This document shows positions 8,897 to 12,317 of a stretch of 12,317 nucleotides of DNA, piece after piece. The translations under genes were made by a program, and so were the position numbers. The notes beneath the pieces were generated by a model, which was given only the letters and a program-made list of their open reading frames with translations, ran no database searches and had not been told where the DNA came from. Positions within the stretch are counted from its first letter, which is position 1. Every line of letters starts with the position of its first letter. The DNA comes from an uncultured bacterium. Lineage in GTDB: Bacteria > Pseudomonadota > Gammaproteobacteria > Burkholderiales > Burkholderiaceae_D. The stretch covers positions 1 through 12,317 of the forward strand of contig CAIQLE010000340.1 in the NCBI GenBank assembly GCA_903872555.1, given 5' to 3'.

Positions 8897-11146
8897 ATGG
8901 TATTTGTGGCCGCCACTCGGGATGGCGATGAGCAGCTGCTGGCAGGTTTGCGTGATGAAGATGCAGCGCGTCTGAAGGATGCGCTGGCTTTCGTTCGTGC
9001 CGCTTATGCAGGCAAGACCGTGCCCACAGGGCAGGACGCCATGGCTTTTTCGCGTGGCGTGGCGCTCTCGCTGGCAAGCTTGAAGACCGATGTGGATACC
9101 CGACTAGCCGGTCTGTTGTTTGAATTGACCTCGCTTGAGCCCACAGCGGCAGAACAGATAGAGCCGCGCTTCGGCAAGGAAGTGGCGGACATGGTGGCGG
9201 GCATACGGCAGCTGATGCGTCTGCATGAAGGTAATTTCGTGCAGCAGGAAAACAGCAAGAGTAAGAGCAATGCCGCCAGCCAGCTGGAGACTTTACGCAA
9301 GATGACACTGGCTATGGCGACGGACATGCGGGTGGTGCTGGTGCGCCTGACTTCACGTCTGACCACGCTGCGGTTTTTTGCTGAACAAAAGCTGGAAAAC
9401 GATATGACCTTGCGCTACGCGCGCGAAAGTTTTGATCTGTATGCCCCGCTGGCCAATCGTTTGGGCATCTGGCAACTCAAATGGGAACTGGAAGATCTGT
9501 CTTTCCGTTTTTCTGAGCCTGCCAATTACAAGCGCGTCGCCAGGATGCTGGAAGAGAAACGAGCTGAACGCGAAAGTTTTGTTGAAGACGCGATTGCACG
9601 CCTCAAAGCGGAACTGGCTGCTGCGGGCATACGTGCCGAAGTGTATGGGCGTCCCAAGCATCTCTACAGTATCTGGAACAAGATGCAGGGCAAGGACATT
9701 GATTTTTCACGTCTGCATGATGTGCGTGCCTTTCGCGTGATTGTGGATGACCTGAAATCTTGCTATGCCGTGCTCTCTATCGTGCACAACATCTGGACCC
9801 CGGTGCCCGAAGAATATGATGATTACATTGCACGCCCGAAAAGCAATGGATATCAATCGCTGCATACGGTGGTGGAAGCAGAAGACGGTCGCACGCTGGA
9901 AGTTCAGGTGCGCACTCAGGAGATGCATCATTTCGCTGAATATGGTGTTGCTGCACACTGGCGCTACAAAGAAGGCAGTGGTGCAGCAAGCGATGAATCT
10001 TACGATGAAAAAATCGCCTGGCTACGTCAACTGCTGGCCTGGAAAAGCGAGATGGTGGACGTGGTGGTCAGCCATGAAGACACTGAGCGTCAGTGGGTGC
10101 AGCAACTCAAGGCTGCTTCAATCAATGACCGAATCTATGTGCTCACGCCTCAGGGCCGGCTGATTGAATTGACGATGGGCGCAACGCCGATTGACTTCGC
10201 CTATCAATTGCACAGCAATATCGGCCATCGTTGCCGCGGTGCGAAAATCAATGGCGTGATGGTGCCGCTGAATACGCAGCTGAAGAACGGGCAGACCGTA
10301 GAAATTCTGACGGCAAAAGGTGAGGCTGCGGCCTCAGGTATGGCGGGCCCTTCACGCGACTGGCTGTCCGATGGTTATAGCTCCAGTCCGCGCACGCGGG
10401 CCAAGATTCGCGCCTGGTTCAATGCTATTGAAGAAGCGGAAACTCTGGCCCATGGACGTGCGGTGCTTGAAAAAACCCTGCAGCGCGAAGGCAGGACTTC
10501 GGTCAACCTGGAAGATCTGGCCCACAAGCTGGGCTTCCCCAAGTTAGAAGATTTTTTGCTCGCGGTGGGTAATGAGCGTTTCAGTTTGCGGCTGGTCGAA
10601 CAGGCGCTGCATGCCGATGACCCGAACCGTCAACAGGCGCCCAGTCCGGATGAATCAGTCTTGCCACGCAAGAGTCGTGCATCCAGCGTTACCCAGGGTG
10701 CGAAATCCGGCATTCTGGTGCTGGGCACTGAAGGCCTGCTGACGCAAATGGCGAGCTGCTGCAAGCCGGCACCACCGGACCCTATCGTGGGCTTCATCAC
10801 GCGCGGCAAAGGCATTTCCATTCATCGTGCCAGTTGCAAAAATTTATCGCAGATGTTGTTGCGTGCTCCAGAGCGCATCATGCAGACCACCTGGGGCAGT
10901 CAGAACTCGGATACGGTCTATCCGGTGGATGTATTCGTGCTGGCCATGGACCGACAGGGTCTGCTGCGTGATATCTCGGATATTTTTTTGCGCGAGAAAA
11001 TTAATGTGATTGGTGTGTCCACACGCAGCAGCAAGGGGCAGGCCACCATGTCCTTCACGGGTGAAATTTCTTCGACAGCACAATTGCAGCGCGCACTGGG
11101 TGTGATTCGTGAGGTCAAGGGTGTGCTTGAAGTCAGGCGCAGCTGA
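8897..11146 (+). CDS. relA: RelA-type (p)ppGpp synthetase
   Basis: This 749-residue long RelA/SpoT homologue makes (p)ppGpp from ATP and GDP/GTP when uncharged tRNA enters the ribosome. Domain order: pseudo-hydrolase (about 25-200), synthetase (about 240-355), TGS (about 409-473), a helical domain, a zinc-finger-like region with Cys621-Cys622, His643 and Cys647, and a C-terminal ACT domain (about 674-748). The hydrolase HD pair is replaced by Phe75-Glu76 in LLFEL, so hydrolysis should be lost. The synthetase has E306-Y-D-D309, the EXDD variant typical of monofunctional RelA rather than the RXKD of SpoT/Rel, plus GYQSLHT (318-324) and the EVQVRT catalytic strand with Glu335. A separate SpoT must therefore exist elsewhere for hydrolysis. 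AGGA (8887-8890) precedes ATG 8897 by six bases. It is the second gene after the hydrolase. Confidence 0.95.
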   Translation: MVFVAATRDGDEQLLAGLRDEDAARLKDALAFVRAAYAGKTVPTGQDAMAFSRGVALSLASLKTDVDTRLAGLLFELTSLEPTAAEQIEPRFGKEVADMVAGIRQLMRLHEGNFVQQENSKSKSNAASQLETLRKMTLAMATDMRVVLVRLTSRLTTLRFFAEQKLENDMTLRYARESFDLYAPLANRLGIWQLKWELEDLSFRFSEPANYKRVARMLEEKRAERESFVEDAIARLKAELAAAGIRAEVYGRPKHLYSIWNKMQGKDIDFSRLHDVRAFRVIVDDLKSCYAVLSIVHNIWTPVPEEYDDYIARPKSNGYQSLHTVVEAEDGRTLEVQVRTQEMHHFAEYGVAAHWRYKEGSGAASDESYDEKIAWLRQLLAWKSEMVDVVVSHEDTERQWVQQLKAASINDRIYVLTPQGRLIELTMGATPIDFAYQLHSNIGHRCRGAKINGVMVPLNTQLKNGQTVEILTAKGEAAASGMAGPSRDWLSDGYSSSPRTRAKIRAWFNAIEEAETLAHGRAVLEKTLQREGRTSVNLEDLAHKLGFPKLEDFLLAVGNERFSLRLVEQALHADDPNRQQAPSPDESVLPRKSRASSVTQGAKSGILVLGTEGLLTQMASCCKPAPPDPIVGFITRGKGISIHRASCKNLSQMLLRAPERIMQTTWGSQNSDTVYPVDVFVLAMDRQGLLRDISDIFLREKINVIGVSTRSSKGQATMSFTGEISSTAQLQRALGVIREVKGVLEVRRS

Positions 11147-11189
11147 GCACGGAGCAGGGTGCGAAGTAGTCGAAAAGCTAATGCTCAGC
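11142..11189 (+). repeat. Inverted repeat spanning the relA stop codon
   Basis: GCTGAGCA (11142-11149) and TGCTCAGC (11182-11189) are perfect eight-base complements separated by 32 bases; the relA TGA (11144-11146) lies inside the left arm. A short T-run (TTTT, 11196-11199) follows after six bases. It may act as a weak terminator or 3'-end protecting stem for the relA message. The long loop makes the call uncertain. Confidence 0.4.
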
Positions 11190-11208
11190 ACTTAGTTTTC
11201 ATTGAGGC

Positions 11209-11237
11209 TGGCAAAAACATATAAAGCTGGCTATAAT
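11209..11237 (+). promoter_or_regulatory. Sigma-70 promoter of tRNA-Val
   Basis: A perfect TATAAT -10 box (11232-11237) has TGGCAA (11209-11214, three of six consensus bases) 17 bases upstream. Transcription would start near 11243-11245, only about five bases before the mature tRNA 5' end. The strong -10 box fits stable-RNA expression. This promoter may also feed the thrS leader, since nothing stops transcription until 11471. Confidence 0.75.
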
Positions 11238-11248
11238 TCCGCTTCTTT

Positions 11249-11325
11249 AGGCGCGTAGCTCAGCTGGTTAGAGCACTACCTTGACATGGTAGGGGTCGTT
11301 GGTTCGAGTCCAATCGTGCCTACCA
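11249..11325 (+). tRNA. tRNA-Val (anticodon GAC)
   Basis: The 77-base gene folds as a full cloverleaf. The acceptor AGGCGCG (11249-11255) pairs with CGTGCCT (11315-11321) with one G-U. The D arm is GCTC/GAGC, and the anticodon stem is CTACC/GGTAG around TTGACAT. Anticodon GAC is at 11283-11285. The T arm is GTTGG/CCAAT with loop TTCGAGT. The CCA end is encoded (11323-11325). It reads GUC and GUU valine codons. It sits between relA and thrS; the 3' trailer has no terminator for about 145 bases, so the precursor must be processed from a longer transcript. Confidence 0.97.
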
Positions 11326-11351
11326 ACACATATCTGCAGATTCTTTATAAG
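11323..11351 (+). promoter_or_regulatory. Possible second promoter for the thrS leader
   Basis: TATAAG (11346-11351) matches the -10 consensus at five of six positions. Seventeen bases upstream is CCAACA, a weak -35 that overlaps the encoded CCA tail of tRNA-Val. If used, the RNA would begin near 11358, right at the AAAGG that precedes the leader ORF, leaving almost no 5' untranslated region. Transcription from the tRNA promoter is the alternative. Confidence 0.25.
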
Positions 11352-11372
11352 AGCGAGAAAGGCGAATCGGTT

Positions 11373-11417
11373 ATGACACCGCGAACTAGTACCTTGGTTT
11401 CGGCATTTAACCGCTAG
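11373..11417 (+). CDS. Putative threonine-rich leader peptide of thrS
   Basis: A 14-codon ORF, ATG to TAG, encodes MTPRTSTLVSAFNR. Threonine is at positions 2, 5 and 7 (codons ACA, ACT, ACC): 3 of 14, against 13 of 260 in the visible thrS product, where ACA and ACT occur once each. AAAGG (11358-11362) lies ten bases before the ATG, an acceptable ribosome binding site. The stop codon lies three bases before the segment (11421-11433) that can pair with the 5' arm of the terminator at 11471-11498. This places a ribosome paused on Thr codons, or one releasing at the stop, where it would bias the downstream fold. The reading is seen directly; a regulatory role is inference from the classical attenuator pattern. 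A 14-codon ORF can arise by chance, so conservation is needed. Confidence 0.6.
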   Translation: MTPRTSTLVSAFNR

Positions 11418-11420
11418 TCA

Positions 11421-11478
11421 CGTTCTTCATTTTTGCAGTACAGGCGCGCAGTAAGCGAGTCTGTTGAAATAAAAAACG
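11421..11478 (+). promoter_or_regulatory. Candidate antiterminator fold of the thrS leader
   Basis: CGTTCTTCATTTT (11421-11433) can pair with GAAATAAAAAACG (11466-11478): 11 of 13 positions pair (one G-U), with C-A mismatches at 11425 and 11428. Inside, ACAG (11440-11443) pairs with CTGT (11461-11464) and CGC (11447-11449) with GCG (11455-11457). This uses bases 11471-11478, the same bases that form the 5' arm of the terminator, so the two folds exclude each other. An earlier hairpin (11368-11373 with 11408-11413, with further inner pairs) wraps the leader ORF. The 1:2 partner that would compete with 11421-11433 is weak: GAAC 11383-11386 with GTTC 11422-11425. Energies were not computed. Confidence 0.5.
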
Positions 11479-11498
11479 CGGCCAGCCCGCGTTTTTTT
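11471..11498 (+). terminator. Intrinsic terminator / attenuator ahead of thrS
   Basis: AAAAAACGCGG (11471-11481) pairs perfectly with CCGCGTTTTTT (11487-11497) around a five-base loop, and the strand ends in seven T residues (11492-11498). It is a strong rho-independent terminator. It lies 145 bases after tRNA-Val and ends only 26 bases before the thrS Shine-Dalgarno. There is no room for a thrS promoter downstream of it, so thrS must be reached by readthrough or from a promoter upstream. This makes it an attenuator rather than a plain end of the tRNA unit. Confidence 0.9.
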
Positions 11499-11501
11499 AT
11501 G

Positions 11502-11516
11502 CCCGCTCGCAGCGGG
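11502..11516 (+). promoter_or_regulatory. GC-rich hairpin just before the thrS ribosome binding site
   Basis: CCCGCT (11502-11507) pairs with AGCGGG (11511-11516) around CGC. It sits between the terminator T-run and AAGGAG (11525-11530). It may insulate the ribosome binding site or be a translational operator. E. coli ThrRS is known to bind stem-loops in its own leader, but no anticodon mimic is evident here. Confidence 0.4.
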
Positions 11517-11536
11517 ACATCCTCAAGGAGCACAGC

Positions 11537-12317
11537 ATGATTTCAGTCCGACTTCCCGATGGCTCACAACGACAGTTCGATACCGCTGTCACCGTGGCGC
11601 AGGTCGCTGCATCCATAGGCACAGGCCTGGCCAAAGCCGCACTGGCGGGCAAAGTTGATGGCAATCTGGTTGATACCTCGTTCCTGATTGAGCGGGATGT
11701 GGATCTGTCCATCATTACGGATAAGGATGCCGATGGTCTGGATGTGATCCGCCATTCGACGGCTCACTTGCTGGCCTATGCGGTCAAGGAATTATTCCCC
11801 GAGGCGCAGGTCACCATAGGCCCTGTGATCGACAATGGCTTTTACTATGACTTCTCGTACAAGCGTCCTTTCACGCCAGAAGATCTGGAAGCCATTGAGA
11901 AAAAAATGGCTGAGCTCTCTAAAAAGGATGAGCCGGTAGAGCGTAAGGTTTTGCCGCGCGACGAAGCGGTGGCCTATTTCAAGTCCATAGGCGAGGCCTA
12001 CAAGGCGGAGATCATTGCCTCGATTCCTGCGGGCGAAGATGTGTCGCTTTACACCGAAGGCAAATTCACCGACCTGTGTCGTGGTCCGCACGTGCCATCG
12101 ACCGGCAAGCTGAAAGTCTTCAAGCTGATGAAAGTGGCCGGTGCTTACTGGCGCGGCGATTCCAAGAACGAGATGCTGCAACGTATCTACGGTACGGCCT
12201 GGACTAAAAAGGAAGATCAGGAAGCCTATTTGCATATGCTGGAAGAGGCTGAGAAGCGCGACCACCGCAAGCTGGGTCGTCAGCTCGATCTCTTCCATTT
12301 CCAGGACGAAGCGCCCG
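11537..12317 (+). CDS. thrS: Threonyl-tRNA synthetase, N-terminal part
   Basis: This is an open frame of 260 codons to the window edge; the catalytic class II core and anticodon-binding domain lie beyond it. The visible part holds the TGS domain (about 1-62) and the N2 editing domain, which removes serine mischarged on tRNA-Thr. The editing zinc/catalytic residues are present as His73 and His77 in RHSTAH, Cys181 in DLCRGPH and His185, matching E. coli His73, His77, Cys182 and His186. [13 protein letters not shown] (94-106) and [11 protein letters not shown] near the edge are also family signatures. AAGGAG (11525-11530) lies six bases before ATG 11537. Translation and editing take place in the cytoplasm. 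The usual proteobacterial continuation is infC-rpmI-rplT, outside this window. Expression is probably controlled by the leader at 11358-11516. Confidence 0.97.

Follow-up and report, generated by a model that had tools for sequence, protein, structure and literature searches.

A predicted ribosome-mediated transcription attenuator with a threonine-containing leader peptide upstream of thrS in Burkholderiales

Organization of the tRNA-Val–thrS interval

The window, by which we mean the whole 12,317-nt stretch of DNA analysed, is contig C340, from a genome of 2.4 Mb assembled in 413 contigs. A (p)ppGpp enzyme of the RelA/SpoT type, with TGS and ACT domains, is encoded at 8897-11146, directly upstream of a tRNA-Val gene, a short leader and thrS. 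A similar RelA/SpoT-like ORF occupies the same position in the same-genus genome G015, where the order, with gene names assigned by reading the sequences, is relA/spoT, tRNA-Val, leader, thrS, infC, rpmI, rplT, pheS, pheT and then small ORFs. The tRNA-Val (GAC) gene of the window (11249-11325, + strand, as for all features that follow) lies directly upstream of the leader and is single; in L033 and L037-L040 (Rugamonas, Duganella, Massilia and Janthinobacterium) the leader follows a tandem array of two or three such genes. Ahead of the tRNA gene, a sigma-70-like site, CTGGCA-18 nt-TATAAT (11208-11237), matches 10 of 12 consensus positions. The site is weak, since one was found against 0.4 (sd 0.7) in shuffled sequences, and no further sigma-70-like site was listed in the scan of 11050-11600. 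It is a possible start of a transcript that would also carry the thrS leader.

The preliminary description of this DNA had recognised a short ORF preceded by AAAGG, with Thr at positions 2, 5 and 7 and a TAG three bases before a segment at 11421-11433, and these elements are where it placed them. The Shine-Dalgarno-like AAAGG is at 11358-11362; GAGAAAGGC recurs across many relatives. The leader ORF (11373-11417) has 14 codons, reads MTPRTSTLVSAFNR* and runs from an ATG at 11373-11375 to a TAG at 11415-11417. Its Thr codons are ACA (11376-11378), ACT (11385-11387) and ACC (11391-11393). Region 1, CGCGAACTAG (11380-11389), carries the conserved Arg-Thr codons and, in relatives, is able to pair with region 2. 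Region 2, GCTAGTC-A-CGTTCTTCATTTT (11413-11433), is the predicted 5′ side of the antiterminator and overlaps the leader stop codon. A small hairpin (11440-11464), found in all seven folds computed, separates it from region 3 (11466-11486), the predicted 3′ side of the antiterminator, which overlaps the 5′ arm and loop of a terminator-like hairpin with a U tract (11471-11498).

The arms of this hairpin (11471-11481 and 11487-11497) form 11 perfect pairs around a CCAGC loop, with one T beyond the stem. The perfect 11-bp stem proposed earlier is thus present and a T run goes with it, but the consensus terminator scan of 11050-11600 returned no terminator and did not list 11471-11498, probably because the stem extends into the T tract. 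A second small hairpin, CCCGCT-CGC-AGCGGG (11502-11516), can be seen by eye downstream of the U tract, ahead of the Shine-Dalgarno sequence of thrS, AAGGAG (11525-11530). The 5′ part of thrS, which encodes threonyl-tRNA synthetase, starts with the ATG at 11537 and fills 11537-12316, the gene continuing past the end of the window. The four-element arrangement of leader ORF, stop codon, pairing segment and hairpin is therefore confirmed as observed in the window.

Conservation of the leader ORF and coevolution of regions 2 and 3

We compared 98 thrS upstream regions, namely the window, 17 same-genus loci and 80 loci from named genomes. A script searched for an in-frame Arg-Thr pair (CGAAC or CGGAC) inside an ORF of 7-22 codons. 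The preliminary description had let its reading stand or fall with the conservation of a Thr-rich ORF in relatives; such an ORF was found at the same place in 72 of the 98 thrS loci, a count that overstates independence because the loci are related. By the same script it is absent from 26 loci, among them L050, L058 and L060, which are divergent candidates by eye. L050, labelled Neisseriaceae, has a possible GTG-start leader, MLNLLTTTPRISSGN, with no clear Shine-Dalgarno sequence by eye; its TGA overlaps a region-2-like TTGAGC upstream of thrS. A motif-free test asked only for an ORF of 7-22 amino acids that has a Shine-Dalgarno sequence and, close to its start, TT or TxT. It recovered 54 of the 98 upstream regions, where dinucleotide shuffles lead one to expect 0.8. 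In a second sample, 10 of 39 regions passed against 0.6 expected.

The leader peptides diverge yet retain Thr, as in MFKRTTTTRISR, MFFPLARTTTRNFRPMSR (Achromobacter), MSPNYARTTTSSPR (Bordetella) and MTPRTTTKYWE (Rugamonas). The same holds for MTPRTLTETTSERR in Burkholderia/Paraburkholderia, MTPRTTTADKRQ in Cupriavidus, MFKRTTTTRTSR in Vogesella, MKHWRTTTTRHSHAS in Aquitalea and MTPRTTTTPTKV in Roseateles, and peptides with unrelated starts still contain Thr runs. In the tails of the ORFs, after the Arg-Thr pair, 138 of 579 in-frame codons are Thr codons, compared to 8 of 507 and 22 of 507 in the other two frames. The mean tail Thr over 16 groups is 0.248 compared to 0.077 in shuffles, with a maximum of 0.163 among 2000 shuffles; the 15 or 16 groups used in this and the swap test below were assigned by hand. 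In all 36 loci of the five groups in which it was counted, the distance from the ATG to the TAG or TAA of region 2 is divisible by three (39, 42 or 45 nt). The leader is thus a short candidate translatable ORF with a ribosome site, conserved in frame and, by this comparison, enriched in codons for the amino acid of the downstream synthetase. The enrichment is weaker in the genus of the window, where Thr2 and Thr5 are kept in 16 leaders and the signal is otherwise thin (16 of 144 tail codons; three or more Thr in 10 of 16 peptides). In two same-genus loci, L004 and L006, the leader ORF is missing and the terminator hairpin is kept, and L005 has the ORF; L004 and L006 are probably natural losses of the leader ORF.

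A hairpin followed by a T run lies between the ORF and thrS in all 72 leader loci and is a predicted intrinsic terminator. The segment 11421-11433, CGTTCTTCATTTT, does pair with 11466-11478 at 11 of 13 positions, as first proposed, but alone this pairing is worth only -2.2 kcal/mol. The conserved core of the antiterminator lies upstream of it, where GCTAGTC (11413-11419) pairs with GGCCAGC (11480-11486) and overlaps the stop codon itself. The A/U-rich pairing continues the core helix and forms the weaker half of a longer one; as the conserved antiterminator helix in its own right it was rejected.

Region 2 begins between -12 and +10 nt from the end of the ORF in 65 of the 72 loci. The window is one of the seven exceptions, its best region 2:3 duplex by energy starting 24 nt past the ORF. 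The 2:3 duplex beats the average of the shuffles in 63 of 72 loci (mean z -1.31). For the window alone the best duplex (z 0.13) is no better than shuffles, and this simple energy was set aside as uninformative. Pairing between regions 1 and 2 has a mean z of -0.87 over the 72 loci and 0.35 in the window, no better than shuffles; in the free fold of the window, region 1 pairs locally (11383-11389 with 11394-11400). We regard 1:2 pairing as weaker evidence than 2:3 pairing.

The two partners of the 2:3 helix change together between groups. The pairs are GCTAGTCG with CGGCTAGT in Oxalobacteraceae, TCGAGG with CCTCGA in Burkholderia, GTTCGCGC with GCGCGGAC in Comamonadaceae, CTGAGCC with GGCTCAG in Aquitalea, and CTGAGTCG with CGACTTAG in L131, from another family. 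When region 3 was swapped between 15 groups (71 loci, L064 excluded), the score was -12.97 with the own partner compared to -11.22 (sd 0.50) after permutation, and none of 20,000 permutations was as good. When each group was represented by a single locus drawn at random, p reached at most 0.025 in 300 draws. The own partner exceeded the mean foreign partner in 12 of 15 groups for foreign region 3 and in 14 of 15 for foreign region 2; in Cupriavidus, Bordetella and L098 the own region 3 paired no better than foreign ones. By these permutations, the segment at the leader stop codon pairs and coevolves with the 5′ arm of the terminator. Comparison of the loci establishes the ORF with its frame and Thr codons, the hairpin, the region 2:3 coevolution and the order of the parts.

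The hairpin could instead be a plain tRNA-Val terminator, with thrS expressed by leakage or from its own promoter and the ORF incidental. In agreement with this, the sole promoter-like site found near the leader is ahead of tRNA-Val, and leaderless families (L142, L148, L127 and L149) show tRNA-Val, a T-tailed hairpin and thrS. However, upstream sequence of 600 nt was available for 69 leader loci, and 27 of them keep the leader and hairpin although no tRNA was found in that stretch; the leader thus belongs with thrS and not with tRNA-Val. These loci include Noviherbaspirillum, Comamonadaceae, Roseateles and Achromobacter, as well as two same-genus loci with degraded remnants. Moreover, no sigma-70-like site was listed from 11498 to thrS, so that read-through would still set thrS expression, and a tRNA terminator leaves the in-frame Thr enrichment and the region 2:3 coevolution unaccounted for. 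We therefore consider this explanation improbable. In the leaderless families (those above and others) the T-tailed hairpin follows tRNA-Val at once, before thrS, so that the hairpin of the attenuator may originally have been the terminator of a tRNA gene.

Modelled effect of the ribosome on the leader RNA

The leader was folded up to the terminator loop in three states: free, with a ribosome stalled at the codon after Arg-Thr, and with a ribosome at the stop codon. Over the 72 leader loci, the expected numbers of 2:3 pairs in these states were 5.8, 10.9 and 6.7, compared to 8.0, 8.4 and 7.1 in shuffles. A second sample (n = 18, about 15 of them new) gave 5.6, 10.6 and 7.0 compared to 8.7, 8.3 and 7.0. 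The corresponding values for the window were 4.9, 11.5 and 3.8. None of 100 shuffles of the window showed as large a gain of antiterminator pairs in the stalled state over the state at the stop codon; 7 of 100 did so for stalled over free, and none for the smaller of both differences. The full pattern, with the stalled state exceeding both others by at least 2 pairs, was found in 27 of 72 loci against 8.9 expected, 45 of 72 missing it, and in 8 of 18 against 1.8 expected in the second sample. In the model, stalling in the Thr codons thus would free region 2, and a ribosome at the stop codon would cover it. In full-length folds of the window, the terminator is thermodynamically preferred in all three states folded, so that switching would need to occur kinetically. 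The model switches on at most early codons and not at Thr alone, so that the specificity for Thr rests on the codons and not on the fold.

This property would also fit an attenuator that senses the general state of translation, or slow decoding of Arg (CGA), and not threonine. The codon ahead of Thr is CGA in 71 of 72 leaders (the script accepted CGA or CGG at this place), and Thr codons are few in the genus of the window. On the other hand, Thr leads the tail residues, alone or in a tie, in 10 of 16 groups and has the highest average share (0.244 compared to 0.184 for Arg), and leaders exist without Arg before Thr (MTPLTTPKGFIR and MRPPTTSFTRLPG). CGA sits in region 1, where it is able to pair with region 2, and the controlled gene is that of the Thr synthetase. 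Sensing of Arg or of general translation seems to us very unlikely.

Taken together, we consider it likely that the thrS leader is a ribosome-mediated transcription attenuator, a prediction made from comparative sequence analysis. From the arrangement we infer the promoter, translation of the leader, premature termination, a response to Thr-tRNA and the kinetic nature of the switch. RNA polymerase would start ahead of tRNA-Val and read through into the leader, and a ribosome would translate the 14-codon peptide. With ample Thr-tRNA, the ribosome would reach the stop codon inside region 2 and cover this region; regions 3 and 4 would then form the terminator and transcription would end before thrS. 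With scarce Thr-tRNA, the ribosome would stall on the Thr codons (2, 5 and 7 in the window; RTTT in many relatives), leaving region 2 free to capture the emerging region 3. No terminator would form and thrS would be made, presumably together with infC-rpmI-rplT-pheST, which lie downstream in a close relative. If no ribosome were present, the upstream leader RNA would hold region 2 and termination would be the default. The attenuator interpretation put forward in the preliminary description is thus supported by the sequence comparisons, with the antiterminator core corrected.

Distribution of the leader and relation to known thrS control systems

Of 399 Burkholderiales genomes, 45 contain the exact 17-mer GTTATGACACCGCGAAC, each of them once, and 50 do so when one mismatch is allowed. 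Among the matches listed, all 32 genomes with a thrS position have the 17-mer on the strand of thrS, some 100-285 nt ahead of the gene; these 32, which include G069, are drawn from the 45 exact-match genomes. Two of the five one-mismatch matches (G284 and G177) are away from thrS and were discarded. A family sample was drawn from the listed matches among 385 genomes and comprised 40 genomes of 29 families, none with the exact 17-mer; 39 were used, L126 being too short. By eye, 18 of the 39 regions (13 families) have a leader and 21 have none. Of the 18 leaders, two are repeats (L128 of L051 and L136 of L044) and a third, L116, closely resembles L064, which leaves about 15 new ones. Outside Burkholderiales, a thrS match was present in 104 genomes, and the 28 with the best scores, members of the same class and each from another family, were inspected. 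None of these 28 has a Shine-Dalgarno-led Thr-run ORF or a CGAACT core, by a test that misses the Burkholderiales locus L156, which has an MTPRTQ-type leader. In a quick tree, where L050, L058 and L060 were counted as leaders by eye, the leader label changes 12 times compared to 20.8 in shuffles; its deep branches are mixed, so that gain and loss of the leader are not separable from it.

Of the 28 genomes from outside the order, 19 carry within 75 nt of thrS a stem of 6-8 bp with a T(C/G/A)GTA loop, found in 1.4% of shuffles (L155, L157-L160, L162-L165, L167, L169, L172, L173, L175, L177, L178 and L180-L182). In L172 the script chose a different stem, and the usual anticodon-arm-like stem is present by eye. 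The E. coli-type thrS operator mimics the anticodon arm of tRNA-Thr and acts at translation, and these stem-loops are presumably of that type. An element of the same kind is present by eye in E. coli with a TCGTG loop, which the strict pattern misses. With this pattern, the element was found in one of the 98 Burkholderiales regions, the window being among the 98 (L088, a weak match), and in none of the 39. The E. coli-type operator resembles the Burkholderiales leader in lying just ahead of thrS and in sensing the Thr system, as the leader is predicted to do; it differs in its stem-loop and in this distribution, which suggests that one control system was replaced by another.

A structured RNA bound by ThrRS, as in E. 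coli, or a riboswitch could nevertheless underlie the leader, the ORF-like block being conserved as RNA. Indeed, GGTTATGACACCGCGAACTA is almost invariant in nucleotides across several families, synonymous sites included, and in E. coli ThrRS controls its own synthesis by way of the leader RNA. The accessible part of Naville and Gautheret 2010 (PMC2965389) names no thrS control other than autoregulation by the E. coli enzyme. Other families, however, have different nucleotides there and still show in-frame Thr runs, the anticodon-arm-like element is nearly confined to the outside sample under the strict pattern, and for the window Rfam gives nothing but tRNA at gathering score. There is, in our view, little chance that the leader is such an RNA. 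In the window itself, 11368-11384 (GGTTATGACACCGCGAAC) has nucleotides that are near-invariant across several families beyond what the peptide requires; within it, CGGT and ACCG could pair in a very short stem whose loop would contain the start codon.

The attenuators of E. coli (trp, his, thrABC and pheM-pheST) have a leader ORF rich in the cognate codon and a 2:3 antiterminator that competes with a 3:4 terminator; pheM is annotated in MG1655 as the leader peptide of the pheST-ihfA operon. The thrS leader is like them in its short cognate-codon ORF, its stop at region 2 and its alternative 2:3 and 3:4 pairings before the gene. Unlike them, it targets thrS, has no Rfam match, occurs in Burkholderiales and often lies behind tRNA-Val. 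T-box leaders place thrS under the control of uncharged tRNA-Thr and need no leader peptide. Both the T-box and the Burkholderiales leader would control thrS, and the Rfam scan of the window found no T-box, no Thr leader and no other leader family, the matches at gathering score being tRNA only. For the window locus and seven relatives, tRNA was above gathering score and the other matches were sub-threshold antisense RNA or sRNA hits. Control of thrS by T-boxes, including tandem ones, is described for Bacillota in the accessible part of a published account (PMC12452182).

The preliminary description knew of no leader-peptide attenuator for thrS in betaproteobacteria. This stands for the literature matches listed, mostly without subscription papers, as judged by titles and the beginnings of abstracts. 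A proposed Thr-containing leader peptide before thrS does exist in Streptomyces lividans TK24 (thrL, MKRVRPFLETTPGFVPAR, with two Thr), as far as the accessible part of that study goes (PMC8079986). Its start is leaderless, there is one hairpin without a U-rich tract, and the authors call termination unclear. As in Burkholderiales, a Thr peptide lies ahead of thrS; thrL differs in belonging to an actinobacterium, in its leaderless start, in the missing U-rich tract and, in the part of the study available, in its lack of comparative support (PMC8079986). We regard it as one weak precedent for the idea of a thrS leader peptide. Leader-peptide attenuation is a known kind of control, and the thrS family in Burkholderiales appears to be new.

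The many natural variants, including the two same-genus species without the ORF, offer material for testing which parts of the attenuator matter. If the interpretation is true, many members of a large and well-studied order gain threonyl-tRNA sensing at thrS through an element missing from Rfam. Within one class, the same task would then be solved in two unrelated ways, by protein-RNA mimicry and by ribosome stalling. We are evenly divided on the wider proposal that control was exchanged across the whole order, in that Burkholderiales are without the anticodon-mimic thrS operator, which is widespread in other Gammaproteobacteria, and that many of them use instead a fast-evolving Thr leader-peptide attenuator, often behind tRNA-Val, which couples thrS-infC-rpmI-rplT-pheST to the charging of Thr-tRNA. 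If thrS heads infC-rpmI-rplT-pheS-pheT, as it appears to do in a close relative, the charging of a single amino acid's tRNA might determine how much IF3, L35, L20 and PheRS is supplied.
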